Part shown: piece after piece, positions 33,411 to 60,082 of the stretch | How the letters are laid out: the number at the start of each line of letters is the position of its first letter | Numbering within the stretch: the stretch's first letter is position 1 | DNA from: Cladophialophora immunda | Taxonomy: Eukaryota; Ascomycota; Eurotiomycetes; Chaetothyriales; Herpotrichiellaceae | DNA length: 64,000 bases | Direction of reading: 5' to 3' | NCBI RefSeq assembly: GCF_000835495.1 | Contig: NW_015622546.1 | Span: forward strand, 2,970,955 to 3,034,954 | Notes under the pieces: model-generated | Seen by the model: only the letters and a program-made list of their open reading frames with translations | The model's database searches: none | Told to the model about the DNA's origin: nothing | Position numbers and translations under genes: made by a program

Positions 33411-33930
33411 GTAATTCTTGCAAGGGATTTCTCTGACATTGGTTCTGTAGGCTCTGCCTATTTATGAAACAGTTATTTCGACGAAGGCTACACAAAAAGA
33501 GGTCAGGAGCCAGCCTCCAGACGACTCGAAACCATTGGAATAATTCTCCCCTCTGTTGTTACAACTCGGCAAACCTTCCTTCCCCTTCATCCCCAGTCTG
33601 TTAGCCCCCACGGGTGCCTGCGCGGGTTTGCTTGTGATCTTCCCTAACACCGCGGACAACTCCAGCACAGCAGCAACCTGTGGAAACGCCTAACCCTCGC
33701 AGAAGCAAGCCACTGCAACAGCTGATGAAGCAAATGTCATCGCTCAAAGTCAGTGCGCTGAGCTATAGCCACCGAGCCCACTTGCTGAACTTTGTTCAGA
33801 AGGCAACCAACTATAATATAGGATGCCTCAAGACGTCAAACGAATGCCTCTTTCACCGCTATTTGTTTCCTATTAAGAACCATTTGGGTCCCTCTTCGAT
33901 AGTTCAGCAAACCGAGTGAAAATATTCATA
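33411..33930. other. no supported gene
   Basis: Spacer between repeat and the 3' end of the coiled-coil gene. No conserved frame. Confidence 0.3.
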
Positions 33931-35763
33931 TTACTGAAATCCGCAGTGTCCGTGCTGTGCCACTAACCGCTGGCTTTTGCGTAAGGTACTGTTTCTACTC
34001 GTGGCAGTCTGTTTCGTTCCGGGACTTCTTTTGGCGATCGGACGCCCCCTCTGTGTAGATTGTTGTCCAGAGGTCACATCTCGTTTCGGAGTCTTAGTGA
34101 CTTTCGCAGAACGAACGGAATGTAGAACATTCATATTAGGGACTTGCCTTGTTTGGCGGTCCTTGGACGGTTGCAATCGTTCGCTTCGGCGACGGGGGAT
34201 AGGCTTTTCAACAGGATGTTGCTGTGTTGTGCTCGGTGATAGAATCTGAGCGCGTATGACCTGCCTTGTGCGATCCGGCTTTCTCTTTGACGACTTCGAG
34301 ATCCTAGAGGAAGAATATGGACTGAGAACAGACTTGGTCTCTACATCTTTTCGCCGATGCGGCCGAGCACGCAGTGTCTGCTTCCGGCCAATTCCCCCGA
34401 AACGTTGGGTCACATTGTTCCTGCTGTCATTGTTAATATATCCGCATTCGGCCGCGATGGCGGGATATTGGGCGTCGATCCACTTCACAAACACTTCCCA
34501 TCTCTTGACATCGAGCTGCGCCGCCCTTAGCTCAGCTCCAGCTATAACCACGACCTCCTCAGCGCATTGTAGTTCAGAGCCATCACGGAGTCTCCTCATT
34601 TCTTCAGATCCAGATACCTGCTTCAGGTTATCTCCTGCAGAATGGAGTTTCTGTTGCGCTATTTCAATTAGCGCGGTCTCTTTCTTTGATTTGTTTCGTT
34701 GTGCGGCCTCTAATTCTTTCTCTGCTGATTCCACTCTCGAGTTCGCCTCGGCAATCGCTCGTCTCGAGGCCACAATGTCCCCTATTCGAGCGCTCAGAAC
34801 TTGAGGATCGCTGATGACATCGGTCAGTCGTGATTGGGCATCCTTCAATTGCTTCTCTCTGAGCAATAGGTTCTGCTTCGCCGGCGCGACCAGTTTCTCA
34901 TATGCTTTGAGCCTCCGGTAGTAGAACGCACGAAACTCGTTCCAGTCCTCCAACCGGTTCTGCTGGTGTCGGTCCTCCAGCACTGGGAGATCCCATTTGC
35001 ATCCTGCGTCTGCTTGACTTTCCCGAATGAGGGTTTCGTACTCTTGAAGCCGATTTCGTGGGACGTAATATCTCCGCTTTCGATCTTGATATTCCCGGAA
35101 TTCCCTCCACTCAATGAGTTGATAACGGAATTCAGCGTAATACCCGCCATATTGAGAATGCCAAAACCAGAGGATGTCTCTATACTGCTCATACTCTTCG
35201 GGGTTGTCTATCACGTCGTACCCGAAAGTCACAGGATGAGACGGTCGACCTCCTTCGGCCACTAAAGCATGATAGGCTTCCACTTCCTCTTGCCAGCCCT
35301 CCTCTTTATCTTTCTCCGGGTCGATAGTCGAAGCGGACGACGAGCGGTAGCCCGGGGCTGGGGGTGACACTCTCGAAGAAAGACGGCTACACTAGAAGTC
35401 AATAACTTTTATGTCAGTCGGGGAGAGGAAAATCGTACCCTAATCGGTCCCCAAGTTCGCCCGCGTCTATGGGCCGCGACTGATCTTTCTCGGCGCGCTG
35501 GTCAACAAGTTTTCTAAAGAGGAAAAAAAGGCCAATCATCAGCATCGCAGTCCGTAAGGGTAAGAAAACCAAATAGATTCTCACCGTAAATGTGCTAGAT
35601 GTTCCTCAGTTTGGTTCTCCGGATCTTTAATCCCAACAAGGCTAAATTATCGTCAGTAACAAAAAGATGGACGCAAAGGCAGTCGATGATTTTCGTACAT
35701 TTCATCCCCCAAGTCATCCACCGTTAGGCGGAGGAGTTCGTGGGCGTACACTTCGATCGTCAT
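33931..35763 (-). CDS. basic coiled-coil protein, copy 1 of duplicated pair
   Basis: Four exons on the minus strand (35699-35763, 35585-35641, 35439-35513, 33931-35386) total 1653 nt, 550 residues. All junctions are GT..AG with the same phases as the paralogue at 45824-47654. The small N-terminal part (VYAHELLRLTVDDLGDE; DPENQTEEHLAHLRKL) is well conserved between copies. The middle is helical with a coiled coil (about residues 230-340, RVESAEKELEAAQRNKSKK). The final 170 residues are Lys/Arg/Ser-rich (RRRSERLQPSKDRQ), resembling a disordered nuclear or DNA-binding tail. No known domain. It is transcribed divergently from the FHA-kinase gene at 36088, and this arrangement is duplicated, which suggests joint regulation and perhaps joint function. 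Confidence 0.8.
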
Positions 35764-36087
35764 GGCGATGGTGAATGAGGTGGTTAGAGGGGTGGACGTT
35801 GAGGGGGGAACAAAAGAAAAGGTGGTCACAGTTAATGTCGCCGCAGTCACCTGACCGTATTAAAGGTGCTGGTGTGGCGCCGTGGCTGGGCATGAAAATG
35901 ATAGGCTCCTGGTGATCCTGGCAAAAGACGCTAAACGTTAGCGTAAGCGCCAACCCGGCCCAATTAGAGGGGATAGGTATGTATTGTATTGTGGATTTGC
36001 CCCGCGGTCGGGCAGCCTGACTGTTTAAATGTGTTCAACCGCCCTGCCGCAGAGGACAATCATTCTCCATGTTCTGCTCCGACAGAG
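35764..36087. promoter_or_regulatory. bidirectional promoter of copy-1 gene pair
   Basis: 324 bp separate the two start codons. A palindrome GCTAA-ACG-TTAGC at 35930-35942 is kept in the copy-2 promoter (47798-47810), within a longer conserved context (AAATGATAGGCTCC about 40 bases upstream). The inverted symmetry suits a dimeric regulator. Confidence 0.5.
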
Positions 36088-39000
36088 ATGGATGACCCAA
36101 ATATCTTCTTGACCCTCACCCCCTGTGATAAATGGGGACTGACCGCCGATTCGTTCCGTTTACCACATAATGTTGCTCGATATGTCCAGCCGTGTCCTAT
36201 CAGCCGCGAGACCACGCCTGGTGATTCTGTCCACGACGAAACTCCGGTGAACGAACTGGAATACTTCCACCGCATCCAATTGCGTTTTGACCAGGAGACC
36301 AAAGTCAAAGGCCGTGTCACATTTGGAAGTGATCCCGAACTGTGTGATGTACTTCTTGATTCGAGAAGACCACGATTTTACATCACTTTCGATAGCAAAC
36401 AACGACCCGTGATCTGGGATGACTCCAACAATGGTTTCACTGTCAGCTATGACGGGCAAGCTAAAGACGAGCGGCGAAATCACTTTAAGTGGATCTTCTT
36501 CACCGGGTATAAGACAATCAGAGTCACGATACCGCTCCGGAAGGAGAGACAACTCGCCTTTGACGTCCACCTCCCTCCGCACTACAAGACCCATCGAGAG
36601 GAATACAAAAACAACGTGGAGAGGTTCATGGCTGATGCTCCTCAAGACTATGACGTGGCCTTCGACAACCTAGCTCTCCGCAGCGAGGGACCCTCGTTCG
36701 CGCCGAGTGAATCCCTCTCTCCAACCAAACGACCTATTTACTTGAAGGGAAGAGAATTGGGAAAGGGCATTTTCGGACGGGTGTGGAAGGTGCAGGACGC
36801 TTCTACGGGGTTTGAATACGCTGGGAAGAAGTTTTTCCATTCGACAGGCTGGGAGCGGGAAATTGAAATCATGAAAAAGCTTCGACATGTATGATAACAA
36901 CTATCCTTCGGTCTTCCTAAGTTACTGACACTCTCTAAAGGACCATGTCGTTCGGTTTTTCGACTTCAAAAGGGACCCGGGACCACTTCTCGTGATGGAA
37001 TATGTGCCACTAGGAAATTTACAACAGCAAAACACAGACAGCCCGATTGCCGTGGAAGAATGGTCAGTCCTGCTATATCAATGTCTCACAGCTCTCGATT
37101 ATCTCCACCATCGCAATATAGCGCATCGAGACCTCAAGCCTGACAACATCCTCGTATGTTCCAGGACCCCCTTTTGGGTTAAAGTGGGAGATTTTGGTCT
37201 CGGCAAAGAAGACGAAGATGAAGACTTGAAAACACGCTGCGGGAATGACCGATATTCAGCCCCAGAAGCCTATTCCAATCGGCCTTACACAAACGCAGTG
37301 GATATATGGCAGTTGGGAGTGATTGTCATGGAAGGTCTCTATGGACTCCCTCGCGATACACGACGAAAAAATGTGAAACAGCCTAACGAAATTCAACGGC
37401 AGGCTCTTGGCTGGTGTCAGCTTATTATTGAAGCAGCAGAGGACTGGGAGTCGGATTCAATGATAGACTTTCTTAGGGGATGTATGATCATATGGGAACC
37501 AGCAAAGCGACTCCCCGCGGACGAATGTGTTCAAAAGGGATTGGAAGCCGGCCTTTTCACCGGAGTATTTTCGCAGACGGGAAATGTCACCCCCCGATTA
37601 CAACCCGATGGAGGCACTGGCGATGTCAATATAAAAGAAGCGTCGACCGTCATGGGACCCTTGTGGCAAAATGTCAGGACGTCCCCCAGAAACGAAGAGC
37701 GTACATTGCGATTACGAGGCACTCCTTCTCCGCCGCTCCACGAATGCGAACAAGTACCACAGTCTCATGGAGGCATAAGCTTGAACGACGACGAGAGCAC
37801 TTCACTGGTTACTCCAGAACGATACGACAACAGGTTTGCTAAACGCAGACGGACCACGGACGATTTTGAGCCTAACCTTCAGTTTCCTGGTTCAGTCCAG
37901 CAACTTGGCTGGCCTCAGCTTCCCCAAGTAGCGGCTAATCGCGGTGAGAAGGGTTCAATGGGTAGGGAAGGGTACACCGCAAGACCAGCCGTGTCAGACG
38001 AAGACCCAGATCAAGATGATGAGATCACGGAGATTCCGCCAGTCCAGCCACCTCTTGAGCGACGCGGCAAATTTATCGTGCAGTCCACTGAGGAACACCA
38101 AGCCCTTTTACGCATAATAGATGGCCAAGTGAACTTTACTATGGACACGTCATCAATTGCTCCTTGGATCGATATTCACACTGCACGGGAGCTATGCTCA
38201 ATTGCCAATGTCGGTGCAAAGTTTCAACCGCTCTTTTCTTTTGGAGAAGCCCGACAAGCTCAGGTCCCGGTGATCCGGCCCGAGCCGCAACAGCAAATGA
38301 TACAGAACGGGGCAGGGCTTCCTGCATTTACGCCTCTCATCTTTAACGGAAACACTGTTTTAGTCCGTAATGCGGACTCTTGGATCAATGCGACTCAAAT
38401 TCTTCGAGCGGCCGGGTTTAATCGCCCCCCATTTAGTTGGCAGGATCAGAACTTCGCCTATGAGAGAGTGGGGCCCCTGGGAGTCTTTGTAAATGTCGAT
38501 ATCGCCATCCGATTCTGTGAGCTCTACAACTTACCGGAGCTTGGCATGATTTTGCGAGGAGAATTCCAGGGAGAGCATCAAGATCTAGTGTTCACGCGTC
38601 GACAGCGCCAGAAAGACAAGGATAAGTTTCACCTTGTCAGTTGCGCGAAGGACACTGTGGCAGTCAGGCGGAGTGACTTGAAAGTCAACTTGGCTCATAT
38701 TTTTAAAGCGTCACCGGCGCATCGCAGTCATCGTGACGCTGCATTGAGGTTCAAGAAGAGGAACCCTTTTTCTGTCGAGGTTGTGCGAGGCGACTCGAAG
38801 ACTCAAGGTTCATACGTCGACATCTCACTAGCAACCAATCTTTCTCAGTTACTTGGCTTGCCCTTGATCGCCAAAGCCCTCGTTCAGCTAATCGGAGAGA
38901 ATTTGTTACCGCAGCGCGAAGGACCTTCTACGGCGGCACAACCCAAAGGCATCCTAGCACAACCTGGACCGGCCAAAGATATCAACAATGGTGACAACTC

Positions 39001-39620
39001 AGGCCCAGACATGACCATCTCCGAGATCGATAGGCTATTGAACGTTTCTCAGCCGTCCTTTAGGTTCATGATGCCATCACGGCACTCACAATCGTCGCGC
39101 TTAGGAATGGATCATCCGCAGAACAATGGAGGCGTGCAGAAGCCAGGTGAATGGATGAGCCAAATCAGCTTGTCCTCCCTCATCATTCCATCCGACCTTT
39201 CATGTTTCAAGCAAGACGAGCCAGAAAACTTCCCGAATCAGGAGCAGGATCAGGAGGAACGGGAAGCTTGTCCGGACCAGCCTGGTGTAGCTGCGCCCTA
39301 CCCTCAACCGGGACCAGGTGTCCCAGGACCGTCTCCAACTTCCGCAACATCGCAAACTCCTCAAGTATGCAATCATCTACTTCCGTTCTTACAGCATATT
39401 GCTAATGACTTGGACCTAGAGATTCGTTTTTGTGCCGAATGAACAGCCTAAGAGGCCCCGTCGAAAACCAGAGGAAATCGAGAGGCTGTACAAATGTGGG
39501 TGGAATGGTTGCGAAAAAGCTTATGGCAATTTGGGTCACCTGAATCAGCATGTGTCGAAACATTCTCATGGACCAAAAAGAAAAGGTGACAATCTTCTCG
39601 CTTCTCAATATATTATCTAA
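36088..39620 (+). CDS. FHA-like / Ser-Thr kinase / twin APSES-KilA-N / C2H2 zinc-finger fusion, copy 1
   Basis: Three exons (36088-36888, 36941-39364, 39420-39620) give 1141 residues. Residues 75-125 form an FHA-like domain (RVTFGSD; NNGFTVSYDG). The kinase spans about 220-465: loop GRELGKGIFGRV, K247, HRD 329-331, DFG 351-353, SAPEAY; all catalytic residues are present. Two APSES/KilA-N-like domains follow at about 730-800 (VLVRNADSWINATQILRAAG) and 830-910 (VAVRRSDLKVNLAHIFKAS; VVRGDSKTQGSYVDI). The last exon adds KRPRRKP and one C2H2 finger (C1101, C1106, H1119, H1123) very like that of Con7-type fungal regulators. A nuclear kinase able to bind DNA is the simplest reading. The FHA domain lacks the usual SxxH phosphothreonine contact, unlike its paralogue at 47966. 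Domain boundaries are by eye. Confidence 0.85.
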
Positions 39621-39794
39621 CTCGACACTAGGCCGGGGGGATGGCTAAGTATAGGTGGGACTGTGTACCGGACGGGCCGGGCAGCAGTCACATACTTGCA
39701 ATTTGCGAGATCAGGGCCGTAGGATGACGAATGAGGAAAGGTCGTGCCATTCCCTTAAGGAAGTGTTACTTCTAGGATGGGAGTTGGCAAGTAA

Positions 39795-41265
39795 ATTCCC
39801 GTACGAGGCTGGTTGCATTATCTCTGGTATAACCCAGATCGACTGGTAACGGGTGCGCAGCCATATAAGGGGGATGTCTATATTGAAGGTCAGCAGCCTT
39901 AATCATACTGGCATCATCTTTTGTAGAACCTGGGCTAATTTTCCGCGCAGGCCAACGAATTATGAACGTTGGGGAAGTCCCGCAGAAAGCACAGCTTATG
40001 CGTGATGCTAAAGTCAAGGTGATTGACGGCAGAGGTCGTACACTCATGTCTGGTCTTGGTGATGCGCATACGCATCTTACTTGGAATGGCGATATAGGTT
40101 AGTGAGACTACCCCACGAGAAATCGATATCGGGAGAGAATAAAGCTGACAACCATTCCAGCGGGTCTAGGCACTATGGGTGTAGAAGAGCATACCATTCT
40201 CACTGTACGCTCAGCTCAAATCTACCTAGACTCGGGGTATACAATGTAAGAGGTATCCAGGTCGACGTTGATGACGTATGGCGTTGACCATCATTGCTGC
40301 CAGGTGTTTCGGCGCGGCTTCGGCCAAAGACAGACTTGACTGTGTGGTCCGGGATGCCATTAACGCTGGTGACATCCCCGGCCCCAGATACTTGGCCAAT
40401 GCAAAGGAAATAGCTCGTCGAGACGGGACGCTGCTGCCAAGCATTACCGCTTTCGCTGACGGTAAGGTGACTCTCATTCTTCTACTTGGAGTCTTATCGT
40501 CTAATATATCCATCTAGGTCCAGATGAAATGCGGGAAGTCATTCGTCGTCATATCGGGTTCGGCGTAGATAATATTAAGCTGAGTATGTCTGGCGAGGAA
40601 GTATGGCCCCCAAATTCCTCATTCCATATTGCAGCCGCTGACTTCGCCGCCTCAAAAGATTACAGAAACGATGCGTGCTGAAGATAGCTACTTTTCTGAA
40701 GAAGAAACTGCAGCCTGTGTTGACGAAGGTATGTTCTACTTCTATCCTTGGCTCCAAATTATAGGCACAATGTACTGACTGCAATTGAAGCTCATAAATA
40801 TGGGAAAAGGTAACATTACATTTCGGAAAGGACAACCCAATACTTACAGAATGGGAAGGTTGTGCTCTCACGCGCGCTCAGCGGAGTCAGTCAAACAGTG
40901 TATCCGGCATGGCATCGAAGTTATCTTCCATGCCAGCTTCATCGATGACGAAGGCATGGATATGCTCGAAAAAGCGAAGAGCAAACATGTCGTTGCACCA
41001 GGCCTCAACTGGCTGCATGCAATGCTCTACGATGCCGATTCTTTCGGCTACAGCTACCAGAAGGCTGAACAGGTGGGATATAAGAGAGAGTACGACGCTG
41101 CAATCCGAGGATTGAAAGAGATGCATAGGCGCGGTATCACTGTACTACCGTGAGTCATAACATTACGGCACCATATGTCACGATGAATATACACGGCGGT
41201 TGTCACGAACCTGATAAGCATAACTATTAAACAGGTGCAATATCTGCTACGAAGTAGCAGGATAG
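39795..41265 (+). pseudogene. amidohydrolase gene truncated at both ends
   Basis: Exons ending or starting at 39888/39951, 40097/40161, 40245/40304, 40461/40518, 40600/40659, 40728/40791, 40809/40850 and 41149 all splice in frame. They encode a metal-dependent amidohydrolase of the imidazolonepropionase-like group: GDVYIEGQRIMNVG, the metal motif GLGDAHTHLTWNGD, EEHTILTVRSAQIYLDSGYT, the carbamylated-lysine region (VDNIKLSMSGEE), LCSHARSAESVKQCIRHG and NWLHAML. No start codon exists upstream in frame. After GITVLP, the expected GGDYGFAWTPHG exon with the last metal-binding Asp is missing; the next splice would add only ten residues and a stop at 41263. Internal exons are strikingly clean, so truncation is probably recent. 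Confidence 0.8.
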
Positions 41266-41340
41266 ACTGTCTTTTAAACACCCCTTAAAAGAGTTGGCAC
41301 CTGTTCCTGACAGCGGTTCTGCTCTCCTTTCATGTTTTCA

Positions 41341-41695
41341 TCACTCCTTTTGGATGCATGAAATCGGGATCGCTGTGTCTTCAAGGTCCTCTCTGTCGTT
41401 GACCACAGCTGTTTTCTTCGACAATACTCCGCGGGTGATTCCACTTTCGTCGAAAATATGATCGAGATCCTCTAAACTCATCTTCGCTGTCTCGGGAAAG
41501 AAAAAGTACGTCACTGGTACTATGATTACCCCATTTAGGAGAATGAAAATGATCCATCTATGGTAAGATTAGAAGTATCCATGTTGTGATGCATTGAGAG
41601 GACTTACATTTTGTAGCCGATGTTGTGGACACAGATAGGGGTAATCTCCACTACCATGAACTCGATAATCCACGTTCCCACCGAAGCAAAACGAG
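41341..41695 (-). pseudogene. 3' fragment of an MFS sugar-transporter gene
   Basis: Two minus-strand exons (41608-41695 and 41341-41557, 50-nt intron) encode the end of a fungal sugar porter: WIIEFMVVEITPICVHNIGYK, then a transmembrane helix (WIIFILLNGVIIVPVTYFFF) and the PETAKMSLEDLD signature, with a normal C-terminal tail and stop. The rest of the transporter is absent; homology stops at about 41695, where CK1-family repeat sequence begins. The original gene was convergent with the neighbouring amidohydrolase, so the two may once have formed a small catabolic cluster. Confidence 0.8.
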
Positions 41696-41739
41696 AGGAG
41701 TGATAAGTCATTCGTTAGGCATATCCACGGTCCTCTCCA

Positions 41740-42400
41740 TCCCCATGTTAGAGAGTTTCATCACTTTCGACGAGTTGCCTCAGTCACATCCCGGGCTCCA
41801 GAACCTGATGGCTTCGTTGTGTCCCCTCTTCTTTGTCCCTCGTCCACATCATTCGATGCAAGCTGTTTTGGGGGTTCAGGCTTCAGCTTCTGGAATTCTC
41901 GAATTATCCAGTCAAAGACGCTATCGTATTCGAACCCTTGTCGGCGAAACAGCTGGTTAAATATTTTCTGCAGGTGCTGATAGTCCGGCTGATCCTCGTC
42001 GCGTAAGTTACGGACATAATTCGTGTAGTCCTCAAACTCAGTTAGTAGACCTACATAAAGTTCGTGCGCACTAATTATCTGCTTCTTCTCCAAAACTAGT
42101 AGATATTTGGCATCCCGCTTCGCCTTGAGGCCTTACCACCGAAGTCTCCTACGCATGAAATACACCAGCATGTAGCCTAGTGCCTCTAAGTCATCGCGTT
42201 AGGATTGCGCTAGGGGGACAGTTAGCCGACCTTCTTGCATAGTTAAGCATAGTGGACGCGTCACCTACTAACGCCCAAATGGCCGTTGATGCTCGCATAC
42301 CTGCAGGTGCCTAATAGTTGAGGAGGTCGCGCTTTCACATTACGAGTAGGAGTGCTCGAGCCCCAGTAATTAGGATGAGAATTCTGGGGAGACGGGAAAG
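41740..42400 (-). pseudogene. CK1-like kinase pseudogene with RIP-type mutations
   Basis: Colinear with the intact kinase at 22268 from the region just before the [12 protein letters not shown] motif through the C-terminal tail (FEYDSVFDWIIREFQKLK). The N-lobe and catalytic loop are missing. Stops and changes in the QSRRDD and MRG segments break the frame. Compared with the intact copy, nearly all transitions are C-to-T or G-to-A, mostly at CpA/TpG. It abuts the truncated sugar transporter. Confidence 0.8.
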
Positions 42401-43352
42401 CGTTGGCGTTGAATAGCTTAGCATTGCTCCACGTATTTACGTCTATATCTCTTCCAGTCACACTGGGGTATGTGACGTTTTGGAATTTGGACCATCACCC
42501 CTCGCACACAAAGCCGGCGACTATCACACACAACATGCATAAACTCTCTGACCTTGAAGACAAAAATGTGCGCCAGTCGGAGAGCTTTGATTGGTTGAGG
42601 GAATTACTAGAGCTCCGATTATTGCGCTAACCAGATCTAGACTTCCTGATATCTCGACTATTCTTAGATTCAGATCGCACAACGCCAGACTGAGTGTATT
42701 ATGTATCTGGAGAAGGGGCCCGCTGCAAGACGGGGGAATATCGAGGTGCCCCAGCTCCAAATACAAAACGAATTCTTTGGTGACATACCGTGCTATCAAG
42801 CCTCCACTTTTGACGGGACATGCACAAGGAAAGGATGAGCGGCTGTTTCATTTTGGCCCCATTGATGCACACGGTTCGCAAACAGCCAAACATCAGTTAA
42901 TTATTATTAGGCGCCCGTTTTGGGCGCCAGCCCCCAATTCCTTTCATTGGGCCGCAGCAGCTTGAAATTTATATGCCACTAAGAAATAGCGGAATGCAAA
43001 CTTCCAAACTCCGTCATCAGTTAAAGTACAATAACCCCAACTTAAGCGCCTTCATACATCGCTGTTGGAGGAGAGATCTTTACAGCCCCTCTTTAAACTG
43101 GACCTCCTCGTTCGAACTCGTCCTAATATTATTAAAGACATTGTATAGATTGCCCGAAATGCGCCAATTTTCGTTCGTTTGTGCATTCTCGATATCCTGC
43201 GACTGCCGCCCCTCCGACTACTTCTCATCTCAGAGGTTTAGAAGTCCTCCATCGTACCTGCCTGCGTTATCCTCATTCGTTGATCCTAAATCCTCGTTCC
43301 TACCTCACCTCTCCTCAGTGCATCTGCCTTGACGTGCACCTCCAGTCACTAA
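42401..43352. other. no supported gene
   Basis: Short non-conserved frames only. The right end is CT-rich and may be the promoter of the gene at 43353. Confidence 0.35.
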
Positions 43353-44304
43353 ATGAAAGACTCCCTATATTTACAACAGCCAAATACCAAGATTATGATT
43401 CTGAAGGCTAGACAAAGCGATACTCAGAAAGATATGGATTTACGTCCGCCTCAGGCTGGGAGGCTAGAGAAACGAAGGAAACGCTTCCAGTCGCCGACGG
43501 GCGTAGGAAGTAATAACGGTATCAAGCGGCTGCGATCCACACAATCATCGAAAAATGATGGGGATTCGAGCGAGTTGGAGTCGCTGCAGTCTCTAGCTAG
43601 CGGCGAAGACAGCGACGACTTCTCAGAATACCGTCCCTCAACGGACAGCGAATATTCTTCAGACGGCCACGCCAACGCTCCTAGTGCCATAAGATGTAAG
43701 CGAATCTCCGAGCTCCGATGTGGGTCCCAATGCTAATAGCTTAGATTGTGGCTTGGTGATCAGGAAAGGACAGTTCGTTTTTGTCAAGAACGACTCTCCA
43801 GAGGATTGGATCGCTCGCGTGGAAAAGTTCCACCGGAAGCAAAGGAAACTTTACGTTCGCTGGATGAAGGAAGATGGTCCGGAAATTGTGATGGGTGATG
43901 GTTATGCGTGGCTCTCAGTAAACACCATACAGGATATTGCTGAAGTCGAAAGGCGCGTCACCGACCCAGACACTGAGGAGCGGTGGGTGCATAAAGTCCC
44001 GGTCCAGCCCGCTTCCTTGTCGCCTACAGGAGATCAACAGAAGCTTTTGCAGACCGTTTGGGCAGAGGAAACCATTTTGCGTCACACCCCCTCTCTAGAC
44101 TGCTGCTTAGCAGGGACAGCCATATGTCCGCTTGCAGGTGATGATCCCGAGGGCGATCGCAATCTTGTCCGGCCAAGGACCACGAAGATTAAGTTGGCAC
44201 CATTTCGGCCATGTGCATCTCGAGAGGGAAGTTTGCCTTCACTTTGGGATGCAGTAGGTGATTATCGTGATAATCACCCTGGGTTGAGATGTGCTGAGGT
44301 TTGA
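43353..44304 (+). CDS. hypothetical nuclear-type protein with a BAH/agenet-like segment
   Basis: Two exons, 43353-43695 and 43745-44304 (49-nt intron: GTAAGC, TGCTAAT branch, CTTAG), give 300 residues; M15 at 43395 is an alternative start. The N-terminal 110 residues are Ser/Asp-rich with a basic patch (RLEKRRKRFQSP) and an acidic tract (SGEDSDDFSEY), typical of a disordered nuclear region. The second exon opens with RKGQFVFVKNDSPEDWIARV and KLYVRWMKEDG. This resembles the beta-barrel start of BAH or agenet/Tudor chromatin readers, though similarity is weak. No catalytic motif. Splice and frame support are good; function is uncertain. Confidence 0.6.
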
Positions 44305-44355
44305 TGGGGTGATCAATCGTATCTGTGAACATTCACAAACACTAGCCGATCACTG

Positions 44356-44559
44356 CTCAGTAGATTCCTCTGTATGATTTGAGTGGAATGCTCAGCCATA
44401 CTTGCTACATTCTCATAATAGACGGTGTGTTGATAAAAGGACCGGGCACGCGATACCAGTGTGCGTCTTTTATGGCGCTCCTTACGCGTCTTCTGACCAT
44501 GTTCTTCAATATCCATGACATTATCTGTCTTCATGAGCCACACAGTCTCCGACGTCGAC
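44356..44559. repeat. 204-bp inverted repeat, right copy
   Basis: Reverse complement of 21162-21365 with one mismatch by eye. It lies about 50 bp downstream of the gene at 43353-44304. Confidence 0.85.
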
Positions 44560-45224
44560 CTGCCGACAAACTAGCAATGAAGGGGATGTATGAGGGTATG
44601 CACTCTACTGAGTAATCATTGCACATCCAGGCTTGAGTGTAGGTCTCCCCCTATATGGCATATGTATCTGGGGCAGCATCGTGGAATAGATACTGGTCAA
44701 ACCACTCTTCAGCATCAAAGATAATTGCCTTTGTTGAATAAAGCTCGTTGAGCACACTGTTCAGTTCTGCAGAAGGAGTAAGCCGTGAACCATGAATTTA
44801 AAAATTAAGGCTCACTGGATGGCTCTAGCTGGTGCAGTGATTAGAGTGAGAACTTAGAGCCCTCATGTTGAGTCGAGGTTGATCGGTTTACACATACATT
44901 GACTCCTCTCGGTCCAAACAACAGTAAAAATACTACGCAATTATTTTCGAAACTTGAAAAGCGCGTGTTTTGTCATACCAGAGAACAAAAAAATCCCAGT
45001 CATTGGCTTCCTCGACTAGCTACACAGCACCGGAGCGCTTCGTGCTGCACTGTAATTTCCATGCTACCCGATTCATGTTTGATGGGTACGGGACAAGAGG
45101 ACTGCGTTTCCAATGACTGCTCCAGGACTATTGGGATGCCAATGTCTTGACCGGGATGTGACGGTTGCTAATCGGGCAGCCGTCTCCTCTTTGGGAATTT
45201 AGACCTGGCCCCAGTCTGCGGAGT
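44560..45224. other. no supported gene
   Basis: Only short frames without domains. A stretch near 44820-44890 looked superficially tRNA-like but fails the B-box test. Confidence 0.35.
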
Positions 45225-45800
45225 GCTCCAGTCAAAGACATTATCTTGGACATCTTCCGGAGGAGCTGATAGCCGAGCAGACACGAGCGCGTGATGAGCT
45301 CGAACCCGTCAGCCTGGGCCACACGATGGTCGCCAACGGTCGCCGCACAGACAACAATGACGACCAGCCTCTCAACCGGTGAGGCATTTGATGGCTTTCA
45401 AACAGGCTTTCGCTCAGTCTGCCAATGCCAGCCAACCATTTGCAATTTAGATTTCCTGCCTCGCGGTCGGTGTTGCTCCCCAGTGGAATGGCTGGCTCTC
45501 GATGACAGATACTTTCCACCCTCTAACGAGTTGCCTTGGTCACATCCTAGGCTCCACTACCCTGATGACTTCGTGGTGTCCTCTCCTGGCCTCTCGTCCA
45601 CGGCCTTCGATGTAGAGGGCTCCTAGGCGTCAGGCTCAAGCCTCTGGAATTCCCGAATCGTCCGGTCAAAGACATTGTCGTACTCGAACCCTTGGCCGCG
45701 GAAAAGTTTGTCGACATCTTCGGGCCGATCCTCATGACGCTTGGCTAGACCCCGCATAGAGCCACAGGTCGCCTGCTTGTTCAAAACTAGCAGTTGCAAA
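45225..45800 (-). repeat. CK1-family fragments: tail pieces and 3' flank
   Basis: 45315-45515 matches the flank block (GGTCGCCAACGGTCGCCGCA; CTCTCAACCGGTGAGGCATT; AATGGCTGGCTCTCGATGA). 45640-45720 encodes the kinase tail on the minus strand (GFEYDNVFDRTIREFQRLE). A third piece at 45225-45300 resembles the segment around the tail in scrambled form. The repeat ends within about 30 bp of the second coiled-coil gene's stop codon. Confidence 0.65.
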
Positions 45801-45823
45801 AAGAAGGCAAATAAATATTCATA

Positions 45824-47654
45824 TTACTTGTATCCGCAGTGTCCGGATTGCTGTGCCAACCGTTGGCTTCTGCGTAAGGTTCTGTTTCCACTCGTGGCAG
45901 TCTGTTTCGTTCCAGGACTTCTTTTGGCGATCGAACGGTCCCTCTGTGTAGATTGTTGTCCAGGAGTCACATCTCGTTTCGAAACCTTGGTGACTTTCGC
46001 AGAACGAACGGAATGCAGAACGTTCATGTTAGGGACTTGCCTTGTTTGGTGGTCCTTAGACTGTTGTAATCGTTCGCTTCGGCGAGGTAGGATAGGCCTT
46101 TCAACAGGAAGTTGCTGTATTGTACTCGGTGATAGAATCTGAGCGCGTCTGACCTGCCTTGTGCGATCCGGCTTTCTCTTTGACGACTTCGAGATCCTAG
46201 AAGAAGAATTTGGACTGAGAACAGACTTGGTCTCTGCATCTTTTCGCCGATGCGTCCGGGCACGCGGTGTCTGCTTCCGGCCATTAACCCCAAACCCTTG
46301 GGTCACATTGTTCCCACTATCATTATGAAGGTACCCGCATTCGGCCGCGATGACGGGATATTGGTCGTCAATCCACTTCACGAACGCTTCCCATCTCTTG
46401 ACATTGAGCTGCGCCGCACGTAACCCACCCTCGGCGTGGGCCATAACCTCCTGGGCTATATGTAGATCATAGCCATCACGCAGTCTTCTCATTTCCTCAG
46501 AGCTAGAAACGTGTATCAGACAGTCTCTTGCGGACCGAAGTTTCTGATACGCTGCCCTAATCAGGCTGGCCTTTCTCTTTGAATTGTTTCGTTTTGCGGC
46601 TTTCAATCCATTCTCTGCTGATTCCACTCTCGATTTCGCATCAGCCACCTCTTTCTCTGAGGCCGTAATCTCATGCAATCGGCTGTAGAGGACTTGCGGA
46701 TCAGTAATGACATCGGTTAATCGTGTTTGTGCTTCCACTTCCTCTAGCTTTTTCTGATAGTGCAAGAGCTCCCGCTCAGCGGGCTCGATCCTTTTTCGAT
46801 AGGCTTTGAGTCTTCGATAGCAAAAGGCCCGAAACTCGTTCCAGTCCTCCAACCGGTTCTGCTGGTGCCGGTCCTCCAGCACTGGGAGGCCCCATTTGCA
46901 TCCCGCGTCTGCTTGACTCTCTCGAATGATGTTTTGATACTCTTGAAACCTGTTCCGCGGATTGTAAAATTCTCGCATCCGATCTTGAAACTCCCGGAAC
47001 TGCCTCCAATGCCCGAGTTGGCAGGAAAATACACTTAGGAAGCCGCATCCACCGAAAGATTGCCAAAACTTGATAATATCTTGATACTCTCCAGGATTAT
47101 ATAGCACATCGAAGCCAAGATCAATAGGGTGTGATGGCCGGCCCCCGTCAGCTTTTAGAGCACAATATGACTCCTCTTCCCCGATCCAAGTCATTTTTCT
47201 GATTTCTTCCTCAGTAAAGGATGGAGTGACGGACAATGAGCGGGAACGGGAGGAGGGCGTCGACTTTCGCGAAGGGAGACGGCTATGTTCGTAGTCAACA
47301 AGTCTGAGCTTCTATTTCAGCGAGGAGATGCTCGTACCCTAGCCGATCCCCGAGCTCGTCTGCGTTCACCGCCCGCGAGCAGTCTTTCTCAAACCGTTTA
47401 TCGATGAGTTCTCTGTAATACGAAAAGTAATTATCAGCACTAGAGTATGATAAGGAGAGCGAAGTAGATCCCGACCGTAGATGTGCTAAATGTTTCTCAG
47501 TTTGGTTTTCCGGATCTTTGATCTCAATAAGGCTGAGTGTTCGTCAGTAACAGAAAAACAGACGGAAAGCCGGTGGATGATTCTCTTACACCTCATCCCC
47601 AATATCTTTCACCGTTAGGCGTAGGAGCTCGTCGGCATACACTTCGATCGTCAT
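45824..47654 (-). CDS. basic coiled-coil protein, copy 2 of duplicated pair
   Basis: Four exons on the minus strand (47590-47654, 47476-47532, 47338-47412, 45824-47282) total 1656 nt, 551 residues. The first three exons have exactly the lengths of copy 1 (65, 57 and 75 nt). The N-terminus (VYADELLRLTVKDIGDE; DPENQTEKHLAHLREL) and the block ESQADAGCKWGLPVLEDRH are very close to copy 1; the basic C-terminal tail (RRSERLQQSKDHQTRQV) is also conserved. Substitutions are spread through the coiled coil. The intact frame in both copies argues that both are under selection. It pairs divergently with the FHA-kinase at 47966. Function unknown. Confidence 0.8.
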
Positions 47655-47965
47655 GACGATAGTGAGGTGGTTGAGGGTCGATGGCGAAGGAAAACGAAAG
47701 ATGCGCGGGGGTTTGATGTTGTCGCAGTCACCTAAGTGCAGTTTGAGATGGTGCTGGGCATGGAAATGATAGGCTCCCAGTTACTCTGGGAAGGGCCGCT
47801 AAACATTAGCGTCGGCGGCAACTCAGGCCCAATAGGAATCGTGTGTATGTTGCGATCGCCGATGCCCACAGAGTAGTTCCCTACAGCCTGAGTGTTTAAA
47901 CACATCCAACCTCCTCAAGTTGTTAAGGCAGAAAGCAAAACTCTCCAATTTTATCTTGGACGAAG
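47655..47965. promoter_or_regulatory. bidirectional promoter of copy-2 gene pair
   Basis: 311 bp between start codons. Keeps the palindrome GCTAA-ACA-TTAGC at 47798-47810 and the GAAATGATAGGCTCC block, at nearly the same spacing as in copy 1. Confidence 0.5.
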
Positions 47966-50900
47966 ATGGATGAGCTGAATACCATCGTGACATTGACTCC
48001 CGCGGACAACCTCGGGATCGCGTTTGGTGCATTTCGTTTACCGCATAACCGTTCTCGATATGCGGAACCATTGGCATTCGATGACGGCCCGAGCCGTGAT
48101 ACGACGCCGTTCGGCCCTGGGGACGACGAACCTGCCATCGACGACCTGGTATACTTTCACCGCATCTGCTTGTCTTTTAACCAGGAAACCAAAGTGAAAG
48201 GTCGCTTCGCATTTGGAAGTGATCCCAAGTCCGATGTGCTGCTTGCTTCGAAGAGAAGGCACTATGGCATCAGTGGGCTGCACTTTTTCATCACGTTTGA
48301 CGACCAACGACGGCCCGTGATTAGAGATATGTCGAAAATGGGTCTTTCTGTCAGCTATGACGGGGAAGCAAAAGACGAGCGACGCAATCACTTTCAGTGG
48401 ATCATCTTTCCCGGGTATAAGACGATCACCGTAACGATACCGCTGTTCCTTAACGGTCGGCAGCAGGGAGAACTCGCCTTTAACGTCCACCTCCCTCCGC
48501 ATTACAAGACGCATCCGAAGGAATACAAAAACAACGTGGAGAAGTTCATGGCCGATGCCCCTCAAGACTATGACGTGGCCTTCGACAATCTGGCTCTTAG
48601 TGAGGGGACCTCATTCGCGCCGAGTGAATCCCTCTCTCCAACCAAACGACCTATTTACTTGAAGGGAAGAGAATTGGGAAAAGGCGCTTTCGGACGAGTA
48701 CGGAAGGTGATGAATGCTTCTACTGGACAGGAATATGCTGGGAAAGAGTTCTTCCGCGACAAAGGCTGGGAAAAAGAGATTGAAATTATGAAACATCTCT
48801 ACCTGACTAAATGGAAGTATGCTCATGTGCGCGCTCACTAAGCAGTCTTTCCTAATTGTTCAGCCGCCTGCTAACTCTCGAAAGGACCATATCGTGCACT
48901 TCGTCGACTTCAGAACGGTGCCGAAGCCCCTTCTCGTGATGGAATACCTACGGTTAGGAAACCTGGAAGCACAACACAAGGTCTCTCCGATCAGCGACAG
49001 CGACATGATAGTCGTCTTTAAACAGTGCCTCCAAGGTCTGTGTTGTCTCCACGAGCAGAAGATTACACATCGAGACCTGAAGCCAGAAAATATCCTTGTG
49101 CGTTCTAGGACGCCTATCATTCACATCAAATTGGCGGACTTTGGACTGGCACAGGACAGATCGGATTTGAAAACTTTCTGCGGAAGCCCTATGTATGCCG
49201 CTCCAGAAATCTTCCTTGGTCAAAACTATACGAACGCCGTGGATATCTGGTCACTTGCGGTGATCATAATGAAGTATATATATGGATTCCGTCAAAACAT
49301 CGAGTCTGAAAATCTCGAGGCGACAGCAGAACTACGATTACGGGGTCAGGTCTGGTGCAACTCTCTGATAGAGGAGGCTGATGACTGGGATTCAGATAAG
49401 GTGATCGACTTTCTTACTAAGTATATGCTTAGGTGGGAGCCTCGGGAACGACTTTCCGCAGCGGAATGTTTGAGTACAGCGTCAGAAATTGGTCTATTCG
49501 ACGATTCAATTCTGCAGATAGGAACTCTCATGCCTCGACTAGAATCCGACTGGGACACCGACAACACCGACACGGACACCGAAGAAGCATCGACCATTAG
49601 AGAACCCTTATGGCAAAGCATCGGTACACCAGTGCGAGACGAGGGGAATGTACCACGACCACCAGGCCCTTGTCCTTCGTGTATCCCTGACCAGGACCAA
49701 GTTGAACAGTGGCCTGTAAGAGCTGAGGCCCGTAGTGCGGATGAAAGTGTTTCACCCGTCTCCTGTCACAACCGGTCTACTGAACGCAGACGGACTGTAT
49801 ACGGTCCGCCTAGCCTTCAGAGGGCTTTTCCTCTAAAGTCCGCCAGGACGGGAAGGAGGAGGTGAGCGAATACGTTGTCAGTTCCCATACGCACTCCATC
49901 CTTACTGACCAGATGTCCTAGGCGTCCTGATACGGCAAAACTCGAAAAGTTTTACCGTACCAAAAAAGCCCCCACAGCTAGCGATTATGAATACCTGGCC
50001 ACGGAGACAAAGATGGATATGGGCGCTATTCGAGTAAGGTCCAGTGCCCCTTTATGCCATGGCAATAAAAGACTGAAAAGAGCAGACTTGGTTCCAAAAT
50101 CGAAGATACAAAGATCGACAACAACTGCGCGAATTGGCTTTGGTAGAACCACAGCTGGGGGAAGGCTTTGCAGCCATTCGAAAGACACAACCCCATAACC
50201 AGCCCCATATCGCCCCTAGACCGCTCTCTCTGCCGGACAAAACTCCCTTTGCAGATGCAACTTGTCATATGCACCGGCCTGAGTGGGAAGCTGAGCAGTC
50301 GAAGTACTTGTCTCTCCAATGGCGTGGTGGGACAATTCCCATTCGAAGGGCGGATCATTGGATCAGTGGAACTCATCTTTTCAAAGCATCCGGTCTGACA
50401 GGACAAGAGATCAACATCCTGAAAACGACATGGGACTTCGAATTAGAAGTCGTATCAGGCTCTTTCCCGTGGGCCGGGACATATATCCATTACATCACCG
50501 GGCTTCAAATCTGCCAACTATACAATTTCCAAGAGCTTGGAACTCTTATTAGAGAGTCTACACCGGCAAGATTAAGTCGAGATAAGCTGCCACTTCAACC
50601 CGAATTCTCGGTCATCGGATACGGTGAAACTCTGATCTCGGTCAGAAACGATGGTTATGTGAATATTTCTCACATTCTGCTGCGAATTGCACAATGGAAA
50701 CATGCAAAGATACAGAAACTGAGACAGCTGAAAAAGGAAATTGACTTTCAGGTTGTGCGAGGAGGTAACCGAAAGCAGCAAGGCACGTATGCAGAATACT
50801 CGGGAGCACTTGAGATCTGCGAAGAATATCAACTCAGGTCCGTGGCTGAATGCCTCAGAAAGTTCGCATCTAGATGGAGCTTTGGCACCGCTTCATGCGA

Positions 50901-51114
50901 GATTCCACCACTGCCCCAACTACCACCTAATTGCATCGACCATTCTGCAACAGCTAAGGACGACACTCCTCTTTCTCCGCCGCATCATTGCGGTAACCAC
51001 CAGGTGGATTCATTTGTGGGTATATCGCAGCAGTCCCATTTGAGTGGGATACGGCCCACTTTAGAACCACGAAGTTTGTCCTGGCACTCGAATCTATTTG
51101 AGGCGAGTTCCTGA
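47966..51114 (+). CDS. FHA / Ser-Thr kinase / homeodomain / twin APSES-KilA-N fusion, copy 2
   Basis: Four exons (47966-48826, 48885-49861, 49922-50033, 50083-51114) give 993 residues. FHA-like domain at about 80-135 with S103 and H106 kept in GISGLHFFITF. Kinase about 230-480: loop GRELGKGAFGRV, K260, HRD 349-351, DFG 372-374, AAPEIF. Splicing exons 2, 3 and 4 creates a homeodomain at about 606-665 (KLEKFYRTKKAPTASDYEYL, then helix 3 TWFQNRRYKDRQQ with the invariant Asn at about 656). Two APSES/KilA-N-like domains follow at about 731-799 (IPIRRADHWISGTHLFKASG) and 827-901 (ISVRNDGYVNISHILL; VVRGGNRKQQGTYAEY). The C2H2 finger of copy 1 is absent. It is probably a nuclear, DNA-bound kinase. 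The homeodomain depends on a 49-nt intron with acceptor AAAAGAG. Confidence 0.85.
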
Positions 51115-51155: not shown

Positions 51156-51641
51156 ATGGAGTGCACGAAACCAAAGCCGAAGGGCACAGTGTTCAATACA
51201 CCAGATCCACCTCCCACCGCAGTTGAAACCCCGTTACTCGCCGTCGCTATCAACCGACAGGACTTCTGTTGCCCAGTCATCCTCAAGTACAGTAGAGGTC
51301 ACATTGTCGGACCCGAGGTAGATATCCCGGATTTCACTCCCTCTCACGATCTGTCTACAGAAGGGGTAGCGTTTCCCGGGCCCACCAGCAGTGTAGTCAT
51401 CCGTCGGCTACCGCAGCCAGTGGGTCAGGCACTCTTTACAAAAGCCGTGACTACACTTGGCCACAGCATTTTTGATGCTGTCTCTGCAGATATTGCAGCG
51501 CAGATGGTCAACCTGATCCAAATCTTTATGCGCAGCCTCCAGATCACTCTCCCAGTTCTTGGTTACGGCGGCGCCGCGACCGATTTGTGGCTCTGCACTG
51601 CAGCAATTTGTTGCCTTGCGTTCGCAGCTTGTTTCGTGTGA
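51156..51641 (+). CDS. hypothetical protein with a C-terminal hydrophobic segment
   Basis: 161 codons from ATG to stop, beginning 42 bases after the FHA-kinase stop and on the same strand. A Cys-rich start (MECTKPKPKG) is followed by a proline-rich stretch, then a helical region (IFDAVSADIAAQMVNLIQIFM) and a hydrophobic end (WLCTAAICCLAFAACFV) that could be a tail anchor. No family recognised. It may be an alternative 3' exon of the upstream gene, or not coding. Confidence 0.3.
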   Translation: MECTKPKPKGTVFNTPDPPPTAVETPLLAVAINRQDFCCPVILKYSRGHIVGPEVDIPDFTPSHDLSTEGVAFPGPTSSVVIRRLPQPVGQALFTKAVTTLGHSIFDAVSADIAAQMVNLIQIFMRSLQITLPVLGYGGAATDLWLCTAAICCLAFAACFV

Positions 51642-52489
51642 TGTCAGCAGAGATTTTGTGATCTGTCAGCTCTTGTTAATGTCGAGTGATGAGATAGTCG
51701 AGCTCGGCTTATTTGGCCAGCAGTTCGGTCTGCAATTGTCGAGCCTGGCTCACGATGAAGGAAAACTTTCTCCATATCGAGAATGGGAATACTGAAACCA
51801 TTCCCTACTTTCTTGTCTTTTTTTAGGGAGGAGCGCCCCATGCCGCGCCTTGTAGCACCGATTGGCACTCAGAAACCAATACTCCTGCCCTTGATTCCTG
51901 CAGGAAGGGGCGAAGTTTTGGTCATGAATGGGGGCCTCTGTCCCTAGCAACATCAGCGTTCTCAGCTCAAGGTGAAGGTTCATCGGTTTCTCACCTGTTT
52001 GCCCCATCTTTGTGTGGCGTGAAATTGAAGGGTGACACTATGCAAATTGTATGGACAATTATCAGGACGCAAGCGGGATGCTTAGTATATGTTGTCTCTT
52101 TGCTGTGGTTTCATACAGTTGGAGACAATCTCCGACACGTTTCTTGATCGCGCCAGGGGTCTTTAGGTATGCTAATTTAAGCGAGTCACGCGGTTCTTAC
52201 ATGATTCCGAGGTCCCTATTCGCCTTATCTTACCCTGATCGAGATAGCCTTCTACGAGTTAATGGAGTAGTTGAGGAAGAACCGCGACCTTAGTTATATA
52301 TATAAGTATGAATTCGAGACCTTTCTATTCCTAGGGATAGAGGTAGTTTATCTAGCGAGGACGGCTAGGAAGTACTTTAGATCTTACGACTATAGTCTAT
52401 CTATAAGGACTAGTCAGGAGGACCACGAGGATCGAGGCGGTGGTGAAGATACTGATGGATGCGGGGCTCCTGTGGGCAGGTCTCTTATA
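51642..52489. other. no supported gene; TA-rich stretch
   Basis: Around 52290-52420 the sequence is rich in TAG/CTA words, which looks like RIP-damaged repeat DNA leading into the CK1 fragment at 52490. Confidence 0.3.
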
Positions 52490-54035: not shown

Positions 54036-54266
54036 GGCTACCCTCCGCTTGGCCAATCTGTTCAGCCTCACGCGGCTGGGTCTTTCTGAACGAAAACCCA
54101 GCTGGAGACATGACCTTCACTCGAACTTTTGGCTCAATCTATTAATCTGCCCTCAGTGTACGAACTTGATGGAGAGCAACTCTCAGACTTGTCGAAGTCG
54201 CCGTCGCAGTCAGACTCGAACCCTCTTCCACCTCCCTCCTGAGCCTCACGACATCCCTACTTGACA

Positions 54267-57200
54267 ATGCGTCTTTTGGAAGCACTGCCAGACGGACGGT
54301 TTCGTCTGACCGAAGACCTCCCCGACCACGCCGTCCCTCCCTATGCCATCCTCTCACACCGATGGGAAAATGATGATCAGGAAGTCACTTATGGAGACAT
54401 AGTCAAAGGTCAGGGTCGAGACAAGGCTGGATATGACAAGATCCAGTTCTGTGGAGAACAGGCGACCAGAGACGGCTTACAGTACTTCTGGGTGGACAGT
54501 TGTTGCATCAATAAATCGAGCGAAGGTGAACATCAGAAAGCTATCCAATCCATGTTCCACTGGTATCGCCGAGCGAGTCGCTGCTATGTCTACTTGTCGG
54601 ATGTTTCTGTATTTCCTGGTGACAACAATGATATGCAGCAATGGGGACCGGATTTCCAAAACAGCAAATGGTTCACTAGGGGCTGGACACTCCAAGAGCT
54701 GCTAGCCCCAGCTTCGGTCGAATTTTTCTCTCGCAACCGCGCACGACTTGGTGATAAAGGTTCGCTCCTGCAACAGATTCAGCAGAAAACGGGAATTGAT
54801 GTACGAGCACTTCAAGGAGAACGCTTAACTCGGTTCAGCATCAACGAACGATTCTCATGGATGGAACGCCGCAAGACCACAGTGGAAGAAGATAAAGCGT
54901 ACTCACTGCTAGGCATTTTCGACGTCTCCATCCCTATTCGTAATGGTGAAGGTATGGCGAATGCGTTTAAGAGGCTCGAAGACGAGATTAATAAGCGGTC
55001 GAAGTGTATCCAAGACCTACGCGTCACGGATCCCCGTGATGACAAGAAACGGATTGAGGACACCAAAGGTGGCTTGCTAGCGGACTCATACCACTGGATC
55101 CTGGAAAATAGTGACTTTCAGCGATGGCGTGGTAACCAGCAAAGTCACATGCTGTGGATTAAAGGCGACCCAGGCAAGGGCAAGACGATGCTTCTCTGTG
55201 GCATTATCAACCAGTTGAGGAGTAGCATGCCCAAATCCCATCTCTTGTCCTACTTCTTCTGTCAGGCAACGGATTCGCGAATCAACAACGCCGTGGCAGT
55301 TTTGCGAGGCCTCTTGTTCTTGCTTGTTGACCAGCAGCCTTCGCTAGTCTCGCATATCCGAAAAAAGCATGACCAAGCCGGCGAAGATCTTTTCAAAGAC
55401 GCCAACGCTTGGGTTGCTTTGTCCGAGATCTTTACCGACGTTTTGCAGGACCCGTACCTGGAACCTACTTATTTGATAATCGATGCGCTCGATGAATGCA
55501 CAGTAGACTGGAAGAAGCTCCTGCGCTTTATCGCTGCTGGCTCGTCGCTGTCTCCACGTGTTAAATGGCTTGTATCGAGCCGCAACTGGCCTCCTATTGA
55601 GGAGCGGCTAGACAAGGCCGAGAGTAAGGTGAGGCTATGCCTCGAGCTGAATTCCGAGTCCATTTCTGCGGCTGTCAAAATCTACATCGAGCATAAAGTG
55701 TGTCAGCTGACGCAGGAGAAGAAGTATGACGACAAGACGCGAGATGCGGTGATTGAACATATGTCCTCGAACGCAAATGACACATTCCTCTGGGTTGCTT
55801 TGGTCTGCCAAAGCCTCGAATCGGTCCCTCGATGGAATGTTCGTGCAAAGCTGAAGACTTTTCCACCCGGGCTTGACTCTCTCTACCAACGAATGATGGG
55901 ACAGATTAGTGATTCGGAGAGCCCACCACTCTGTAAGCGGATTCTTGCCTTGATCGCAATCGTATACGAACCCATCACTATGTTCGAATTGACGTCACTT
56001 ATCGACACGCTCGAGGATATGTCCGAGGATCCAGAGTCATTACAGGAGATTATTGGTTTATGTGGTTCGTTCCTGACCATTCGAAAAGACACAATCTACT
56101 TTGTGCATCAGTCAGCAAAGGACTATCTACTCTTGAAGGCGTCCGTTGAGATCTTTCCATCCGGGAAGGGAGAGTCCCACTATACGATCTTCTCAAGGTC
56201 ACTCGAAGTTATGTATAGGACGCTACACCGGGACATGTATGGCTTTGGTGATCCAGGATATGCGATTGAACGGGTCAAACAGCCAGACCCCGACCCATTA
56301 TCGGCGTTACGCTATTCCTGCATCTATTGGGTTGATCACCTCTACGAATGTGAAGCTCACAGTCTAGTAGATCACCAAATCGACCTACAGATGTTCGTGA
56401 GAGAGAAATTCTTACATTGGCTTGAAGCTCTTAGCTTATTGAAAGCTATGTCGAATGGAGTCCTTGCAATGGCGAAACTCGAGAAACTTGTCCAGGTAAC
56501 CTATGACTATCGTAATTATAGATGTATACTTCCTCTAATAAAAATCTAGGATAGAGCAGACGCACCCGCACTACTCGAGCTGATTCACGATGCTCGTCGA
56601 TTCCTCATGTACCACAAGCAGGGAATAGAGATCAGCCCTCTTCAAGCATATACCGCTGCACTCATCTTTAGCCCAACTAACAGCCTGATAAGGCGTCACT
56701 TCAAAAAGGAAGAGCCAAAGTGGATCGCGATAAAGCCGGGTACGGGAGAACGATGGAGCGCCTGCCTACAGACGCTCGAGGGCCACAGCGACTTTGTCAA
56801 CTCGGTAGCCTTCTCGCCCGACTCGGCCCGGCTCGCGTCGGCGTCAGGGGACTGCACGGTGAAGATCTGGGACACTAGTAGCGGCGCCTGCCTAGATACG
56901 CTCGAGGGCCATAGCGGACCTGTCAAGTCGGTGGCCTTCTCGCCCGACTCGGCCCGGCTCGCGTCGGCGTCATGGGACTGCACGGTGAAGATCTGGGATA
57001 CCAGTAGCGGCGCCTGCCTAGAGACGCTCGAGGGCCATAGTAAGGGTGTTAACTCGGTGGCCTTCTCGCCCGACTCGGCCCGGCTTGCGTCAGCGTCGAG
57101 GGACTACACAGTGAAGATCTGGGATACCAGTAGCGGCGCCTGCCTAGAGACGCTCGAGGGCCATAGTAAGGGTGTCAACTCGGTGGCCTTCTCGCCCAAC

Positions 57201-60028: not shown

Positions 60029-60082
60029 CTTGTGTTCATCGCAGGGTGTTTCGTGTCAGCACGTGACTAAAGCGCAGTTAGG

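Follow-up and report, generated by a model that had tools for sequence, protein, structure and literature searches.

Two paralogous Cladophialophora immunda genes joining an FHA-kinase core to twin KilA-N/APSES domains and, respectively, to a Con7-like finger and a homeodomain

Kinases are as a rule brought to chromatin by partner proteins. Phosphothreonine is bound in FHA domains by Arg, Ser, His and Asn residues, of which the Arg reads the phosphothreonine, and Bqt4, a protein with an APSES-fold domain, is without a kinase. The origin of the KilA-N/APSES domains has been treated (PMC4862756, in whose text "protein kinase" occurs once), and Con7 has been described as a C2H2 transcription factor (PMC11277718). 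We analysed a stretch of 64,000 nucleotides (the window, C6:2970955-3034954) of the 42.2 Mb genome of C. immunda (Eurotiomycetes, Chaetothyriales), in which two paralogous genes, called here copy 1 and copy 2, each encode an FHA-like domain, a Ser/Thr kinase and two KilA-N/APSES domains. We lean towards reading them as members of a Rad53/Chk2-like kinase family in which two Mbp1-type APSES domains would tether the enzyme to DNA sites, where it would phosphorylate proteins.

Copy 1 (PV07_10541) lies at 36088..39648 of the plus strand and ends in a Con7-like C2H2 finger, and copy 2, at 47966..51114 of the same strand, carries a homeodomain between the kinase and the KilA-N domains. Splicing of copy 1 at GT-AG introns (36088-36888, 36941-39364 and 39420 onward) gave a protein of 1141 amino acids; the NCBI protein (P0005, 1135 amino acids; exons 36088-36888, 36941-39364, 39420-39585 and 39632-39648) is identical to it apart from an extra 3' intron at 39586-39631. 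The kinase C-lobe and both KilA-N domains of copy 1 are coded by a single exon of 2424 bases (36941-39364), within an open frame of 837 amino acids without an intron, and therefore do not belong to separate genes, which rules out a mis-spliced fusion of neighbouring genes for this copy. GT-AG splicing of copy 2 (exons 47966-48826, 48885-49861, 49922-50033 and 50086-51114) gave 992 amino acids, its parts being linked across introns of 60 and 52 bases. The NCBI protein P0001 of C. immunda ("hypothetical protein, variant") agrees with copy 2 at every residue from exon 2 onward; its first 22 residues are the translation of the sequence before and through intron 1, and its other exon joins, the homeodomain included, are those of copy 2. 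A mis-spliced fusion is unlikely for copy 2 as well, since P0001 joins the same exons and relatives such as P0002 and P0014 have the kinase and KilA-N domains in one protein. Family counts rest on 228 distinct proteins, drawn from the top 120 among 4799 hits of one search and the top 120 among 290 of another. Two such paralogues had been called from the letters by the sequence-only reading, and Pfam, a family hidden Markov model (HMM) and the predicted fold of copy 2 bore out its domain calls; both genes and their domain make-up are confirmed as real.

The kinase domains of copy 1 (36742..37537, plus strand, amino acids 219-466, split by the intron 36889-36940) and copy 2 (48659..49475, plus strand, amino acids 232-484, split by the intron 48827-48884) matched Pfam above cut-off in both spliced proteins (1.2e-45 and 2e-47, respectively), and the catalytic Lys, HRD and DFG motifs are intact. 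The FHA domain of copy 2 (approximately 48143..48490, plus strand) scored 20.7 bits when cut out, exactly at the Pfam cut-off, and was backed by its predicted fold, for which Rad53 and CHK2 were the best PDB fold matches. An FHA fold N-terminal to the kinase was thus found in copy 2, and in copy 1 (approximately 36256..36600, plus strand) via the alignment with copy 2 only; the copy 1 domain is without the GISGLH loop and went undetected by Pfam even when cut out. The nearest match spanning FHA and kinase in the same genome was an open reading frame (ORF) of 1065 amino acids (FHA 8.7e-10, kinase 2.8e-66), which we take from these matches for the Rad53 of this genome.

The twin domains were scored with a family HMM seeded with these same copy 1 and copy 2 domains. 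All four lie on the plus strand: the first and second of copy 1 (38327..38563, amino acids 730-808, and 38627..38890, amino acids 830-917, the latter without a Pfam match alone) scored 82.6 and 89.8 bits, and those of copy 2 (50305..50559, amino acids 724-808, and 50605..50865, amino acids 824-910) scored 98.6 and 84.0 bits, respectively. A structure prediction had been proposed as a check, and it showed the twin domain of copy 2 to have a beta-beta-alpha-alpha-beta-beta-alpha-alpha fold that matches Mbp1; copy 1 was assigned by sequence only. Mbp1 was the best PDB sequence match of the copy 2 twin domain (7.6e-4), and Mbp1 and PCG2 were the sole PDB sequence matches at E <= 10. The KilA-N call rests on the family HMM, the PDB sequence match to Mbp1 and the predicted fold of copy 2. 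When the whole genome was scanned with PF04383, neither locus gave a match, so these domains would be overlooked with Pfam alone; the gathering score was passed by three (P0010, P0019 and P0023) of the eight relatives scanned. A possible degenerate third KilA-N domain of copy 1 (38087..38233, plus strand, amino acids 650-698) was noticed by eye from the relatives, with a negative HMM score and no Pfam match.

Several observations weigh against tethered checkpoint-type kinases. PF04383 stayed under its gathering score in both whole proteins (15.5 and 17.2 vs 23.8 bits; E 0.015 and 0.0046), a Foldseek search with the twin domain gave no match at E <= 0.001 (best 1.4e-3), and APSES-fold domains can bind peptides instead, as in Bqt4. 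The FHA Arg is kept in 2 of 31 alignment rows and is absent from both copies, so that the FHA here, judged by its residues, is not a canonical checkpoint FHA. The phosphothreonine-binding set of Rad53/Chk2-type FHA domains was incomplete in other ways: the Ser and His are present in copy 2 and missing in copy 1, the S-x-x-H loop being absent from copy 1 as well as from four relatives, and the Asn is replaced by Met in copy 2. The gene models are, moreover, predictions, and the fusion in copy 2 hangs on two introns. The FHA domain has probably lost part of its usual phosphopeptide reading across the family, and all of it in copy 1, in which case DNA would serve as the main address. The APSES-like pair could also be a protein-binding platform as in Bqt4, the kinases then being scaffolded signalling enzymes. 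We regard this as improbable, because Mbp1 and PCG2, apart from being the only PDB sequence matches, score clearly higher and together cover both halves, and because the extra modules gained are of DNA-binding classes.

The first of these modules is the finger of copy 1. The similarity to a Con7-like gene at C2:5149621 (the name Con7 being our assumption, from the finger) covers 39295..39585 of the plus strand, that is, the end of the upstream exon, an intron at the same place (39365-39419) and the finger exon. The finger exon is 70% identical to this gene over 53 amino acids and keeps the C2H2 ligand pattern, in line with the Con7-like C2H2 finger called from the letters. The finger had two other matches in the genome, of which the Con7-like gene was the better. 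A proline-glycine linker is common to both genes; it scores 100, whereas 2000 shuffles averaged 39 and reached at most 75. Matching DNA was also found on both sides of the intron, in two stretches (1.3e-8 and 7e-12). From the shared intron position, linker and flanking DNA, the captured material appears to have been a gene piece that still contained its intron, rather than an mRNA copy. The capture is probably recent, since P0014, whose two KilA-N domains share 75% and 72% identity with those of copy 1, ends before the finger tail. The finger matched Zap1_zf1 at 23.4 bits (4.8e-5) in the whole protein, under the cut-off of 27.2, and at 28.3 bits when cut out with an artificial pad. Within the 228 proteins the C2H2 pattern occurred in P0005 and, outside the KilA-N set, in P0196 and P0222. 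A third Con7-like finger was found at C3:13027-13125, 13 kb from a contig end (60-64% identity).

The homeodomain of copy 2 (49932..50121, plus strand, amino acids 617-662, split by the intron 50034-50085) matched PF00046 at 1.4e-10, with 41.3 bits against a gathering score of 22.9, and its WFQNRR core is kept; its place between the kinase and APSES domains is the one first proposed. Pfam on the spliced proteins agreed with the sequence-only reading in the kinases and the homeodomain, both above cut-off, and fell short of it in the KilA-N domains, the C2H2 finger of the whole protein and the FHA of copy 1. Among the 228 proteins, P0001 was the only one with the homeodomain pattern. A PF00046 scan of the genome gave five matches, all elsewhere; copy 2 itself, with its homeodomain interrupted by the intron, was not among them. 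An origin from another gene of the same genome was considered and rejected, the longest match among the five being 33% over 57 amino acids, and no recent donor was found among them. The C-terminus of Exophiala oligosperma P0011 resembles helices one and two of a homeodomain, near the position of the copy 1 finger; this stub is sub-threshold (14.6 vs 22.9 bits), is unreported in the whole protein and is cut where copy 2 has its intron.

The core architecture was found in Exophiala (Chaetothyriales), Myotisia (Onygenales), Flavoplaca (Lecanoromycetes), Variospora, Psora, Oleoguttula and Paraphaeosphaeria minitans (Dothideomycetes). A search in other fungi had been suggested, and it recovered the FHA-kinase-KilA-N core while removing any claim to a private invention: by its distribution the core is a family spread over Pezizomycotina, in which the added homeodomain and finger alone seem to be local. 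In Flavoplaca navasiana P0023, four KilA-N domains score above 20 bits. A length-limited profile search built on the C-terminal halves, which scored the 7997 candidates sharing most words, turned up no stand-alone twin KilA-N protein; it gave four proteins, three of them kinase-bearing and one partial, from a contig of 1308 bases. The architecture was not found in open-access PMC text, for which hits were judged by title (20 of 429 listed for the broadest query); PV07 names are absent from the main text of PMC5595782, on the genome and transcriptome of C. immunda, and the genome announcement PMC4319495 concerns a different, 466-contig assembly. As far as the open-access text was searched, the architecture is undescribed; each domain is known, and the combination and the captured modules are new.

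The duplicated unit is a divergent pair, made of a minus-strand ORF and the plus-strand kinase gene (33920-37352 vs 45813-49293, 72% DNA identity). The neighbour ORFs, 33931..35391 and 45824..47311 (both minus strand, 68-69% amino acid identity, no Pfam family), stand head to head with the kinase copies, with which they were duplicated, and are possibly a functional partner. Identity between the copies fell from 79% in the kinase N-lobe and 68% in the FHA to 48% in the C-lobe and 29% and 25% in the KilA-N domains. DNA identity in windows of 100 columns was 85-93% in 36453-36740, 79% in the next window and 48-78% in the other FHA-kinase windows, and the synonymous divergence (dS) was 0.38 in this tract vs 0.87, 2.4 and 4.7 in three other segments, the last two saturated. 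From this peak and the low dS, 36453..36840 (plus strand; 79-93% identical to 48361-48757 of copy 2) is a probable gene conversion tract. The approximately unbiased (AU) test rejected a pairing of the two copies for FHA 1-225 (0.0037) and the C-lobe (1e-37); for segment 140-280 the pair was not rejected (0.48) and copy 1 in its usual clade was (0.020).

The C-lobe tree placed the copies in different clades (100/99 and 100/97). P0014 belonged to the clade of copy 2 in the C-lobe and to that of copy 1 in KilA-N (97/99; a tree that leaves out P0017, P0018 and P0021, which have no twin KilA-N), and P0007 and P0012 join a copy-1-type FHA to a copy-2-type C-lobe. AU tests rejected the exact swapped groupings, with p from 0.0026 down to 3e-72; for the C-lobe, P0014 with copy 1 was rejected at 3e-72 and P0007, P0012 and P0010 together at 3e-7. 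The case is weakened by the C-lobe data not rejecting P0014 (p 0.109) or P0007 with P0012 (p 0.136) joining the whole copy 1 clade, by some AU groups having been picked after the trees were seen, by P0014 coming from a contig of 6044 bases, which could be an assembly chimera, and by the doubtful model of P0007, with its foreign-looking N-terminus (PF20684). P0022 and P0028 show the segment combination of P0014 by identity. The conflicting segment trees and these AU rejections point to a probable exchange of blocks, with breakpoints close to the domain borders. Module exchange between paralogues, as claimed earlier, is thus retained for the FHA/N-lobe, C-lobe and KilA-N blocks, on identities, trees and AU tests, and given up for the finger and homeodomain, which are separate gains.

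As domain layout, the earlier proposal of a kinase that carries DNA-binding domains of its own is borne out. In the tethering that we favour, the two Mbp1-type APSES domains would hold the FHA-kinase core at particular DNA sites, where the kinase would phosphorylate transcription factors, histones or repair factors; nuclear location, DNA binding and substrate choice by tethering are what we infer. Duplication of the divergent pair gave the two diverged copies, and each gained one more DNA-binding-type module (copy 2 the homeodomain, copy 1 the captured Con7-like finger), by which its address would be changed or sharpened. The proteins could instead be transcription factors with their own switch, the kinase phosphorylating the same chain or a dimer partner to set DNA binding, with no action on other proteins at the site. 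The long Ser/Thr/Pro-rich linkers and recurrent RRRT motif seen by eye between kinase and KilA-N, and a kinase core that stays constant while the DNA-binding modules vary, speak for this; we find it unlikely, the FHA-kinase core resembling a trans-acting checkpoint kinase. An extension of the tethering model, possible but doubtful to us, is that of DNA-addressed kinases with an evolvable address, in which a conserved FHA-kinase core and a recombining APSES pair are combined with variable positions, in the linker or at the C-terminus, that capture host DNA-binding modules (the finger, the homeodomain and perhaps the Exophiala oligosperma C-terminus), possibly driven by conflict, such as the recognition of foreign or selfish DNA.

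A gene of NLR type by its domains lies 3 kb downstream (54243-58739, plus strand), in two abutting frames, with HET and NACHT (NPHP3_N) followed by 13 WD40 stretches, as in incompatibility genes. The same chromosome has two further pieces of copies 1 and 2, both outside the window: C6:2967831-2968001 (L040 6877-7047), which is recent by its identity of 93.75% over 144 bases, and a rearranged one at C6:2846661-2846996 (L035 6661-6996), fused to DNA that otherwise flanks the neighbour ORF. From the NLR-type gene and these fragments we read the neighbourhood as unstable and lineage-specific. The copies could accordingly be fast-evolving lineage-specific paralogues in an unstable island, their finger and homeodomain being functionless by-products of neutral rearrangement, and the FHA loop absent in copy 1 would fit this. 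We give it a limited chance, against which stand the long intact frames, a dN/dS of 0.18-0.30 and the conserved zinc-ligand pattern and WFQNRR core. The window also holds a RING-finger fragment just downstream of copy 2 (51408-51665, minus strand), DNA at 51439-51756 with 69% identity to an upstream site outside the window (L040 1893-2209), a frame with an OTT_1508-like deaminase domain (60071-62140, plus strand), another kinase-domain match in a frame of 238 amino acids (22876-23385, minus strand) and a DUF7924 frame (23681-25585, plus strand). DUF3435, a sign of Starship or mobile-element cargo, had four matches in the genome and none within the window.

If the tethering model is true, phosphorylation would be placed directly at selected loci by a natural kinase that has its own sequence-reading domains. 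Exon shuffling is unusually readable in the captured Con7-like exon, the donor gene and flanking intron being recognisable in the same genome, and this makes it testable how a signalling enzyme acquires a new genomic address. Comparison with known systems showed that the C. immunda proteins share with Rad53/Chk2 an N-terminal FHA domain followed by a kinase, but add KilA-N, homeodomain and C2H2 modules and have no second FHA domain reported by Pfam. Mbp1 and PCG2 (APSES, MBF-SBF) differ from them in that the C. immunda proteins have two tandem, very diverged domains behind a kinase and no ankyrin repeats reported by Pfam. Bqt4, an inner nuclear membrane protein by its PDB titles, scored lower than Mbp1 and PCG2, and from the Con7 factor copy 1 took only the finger part.
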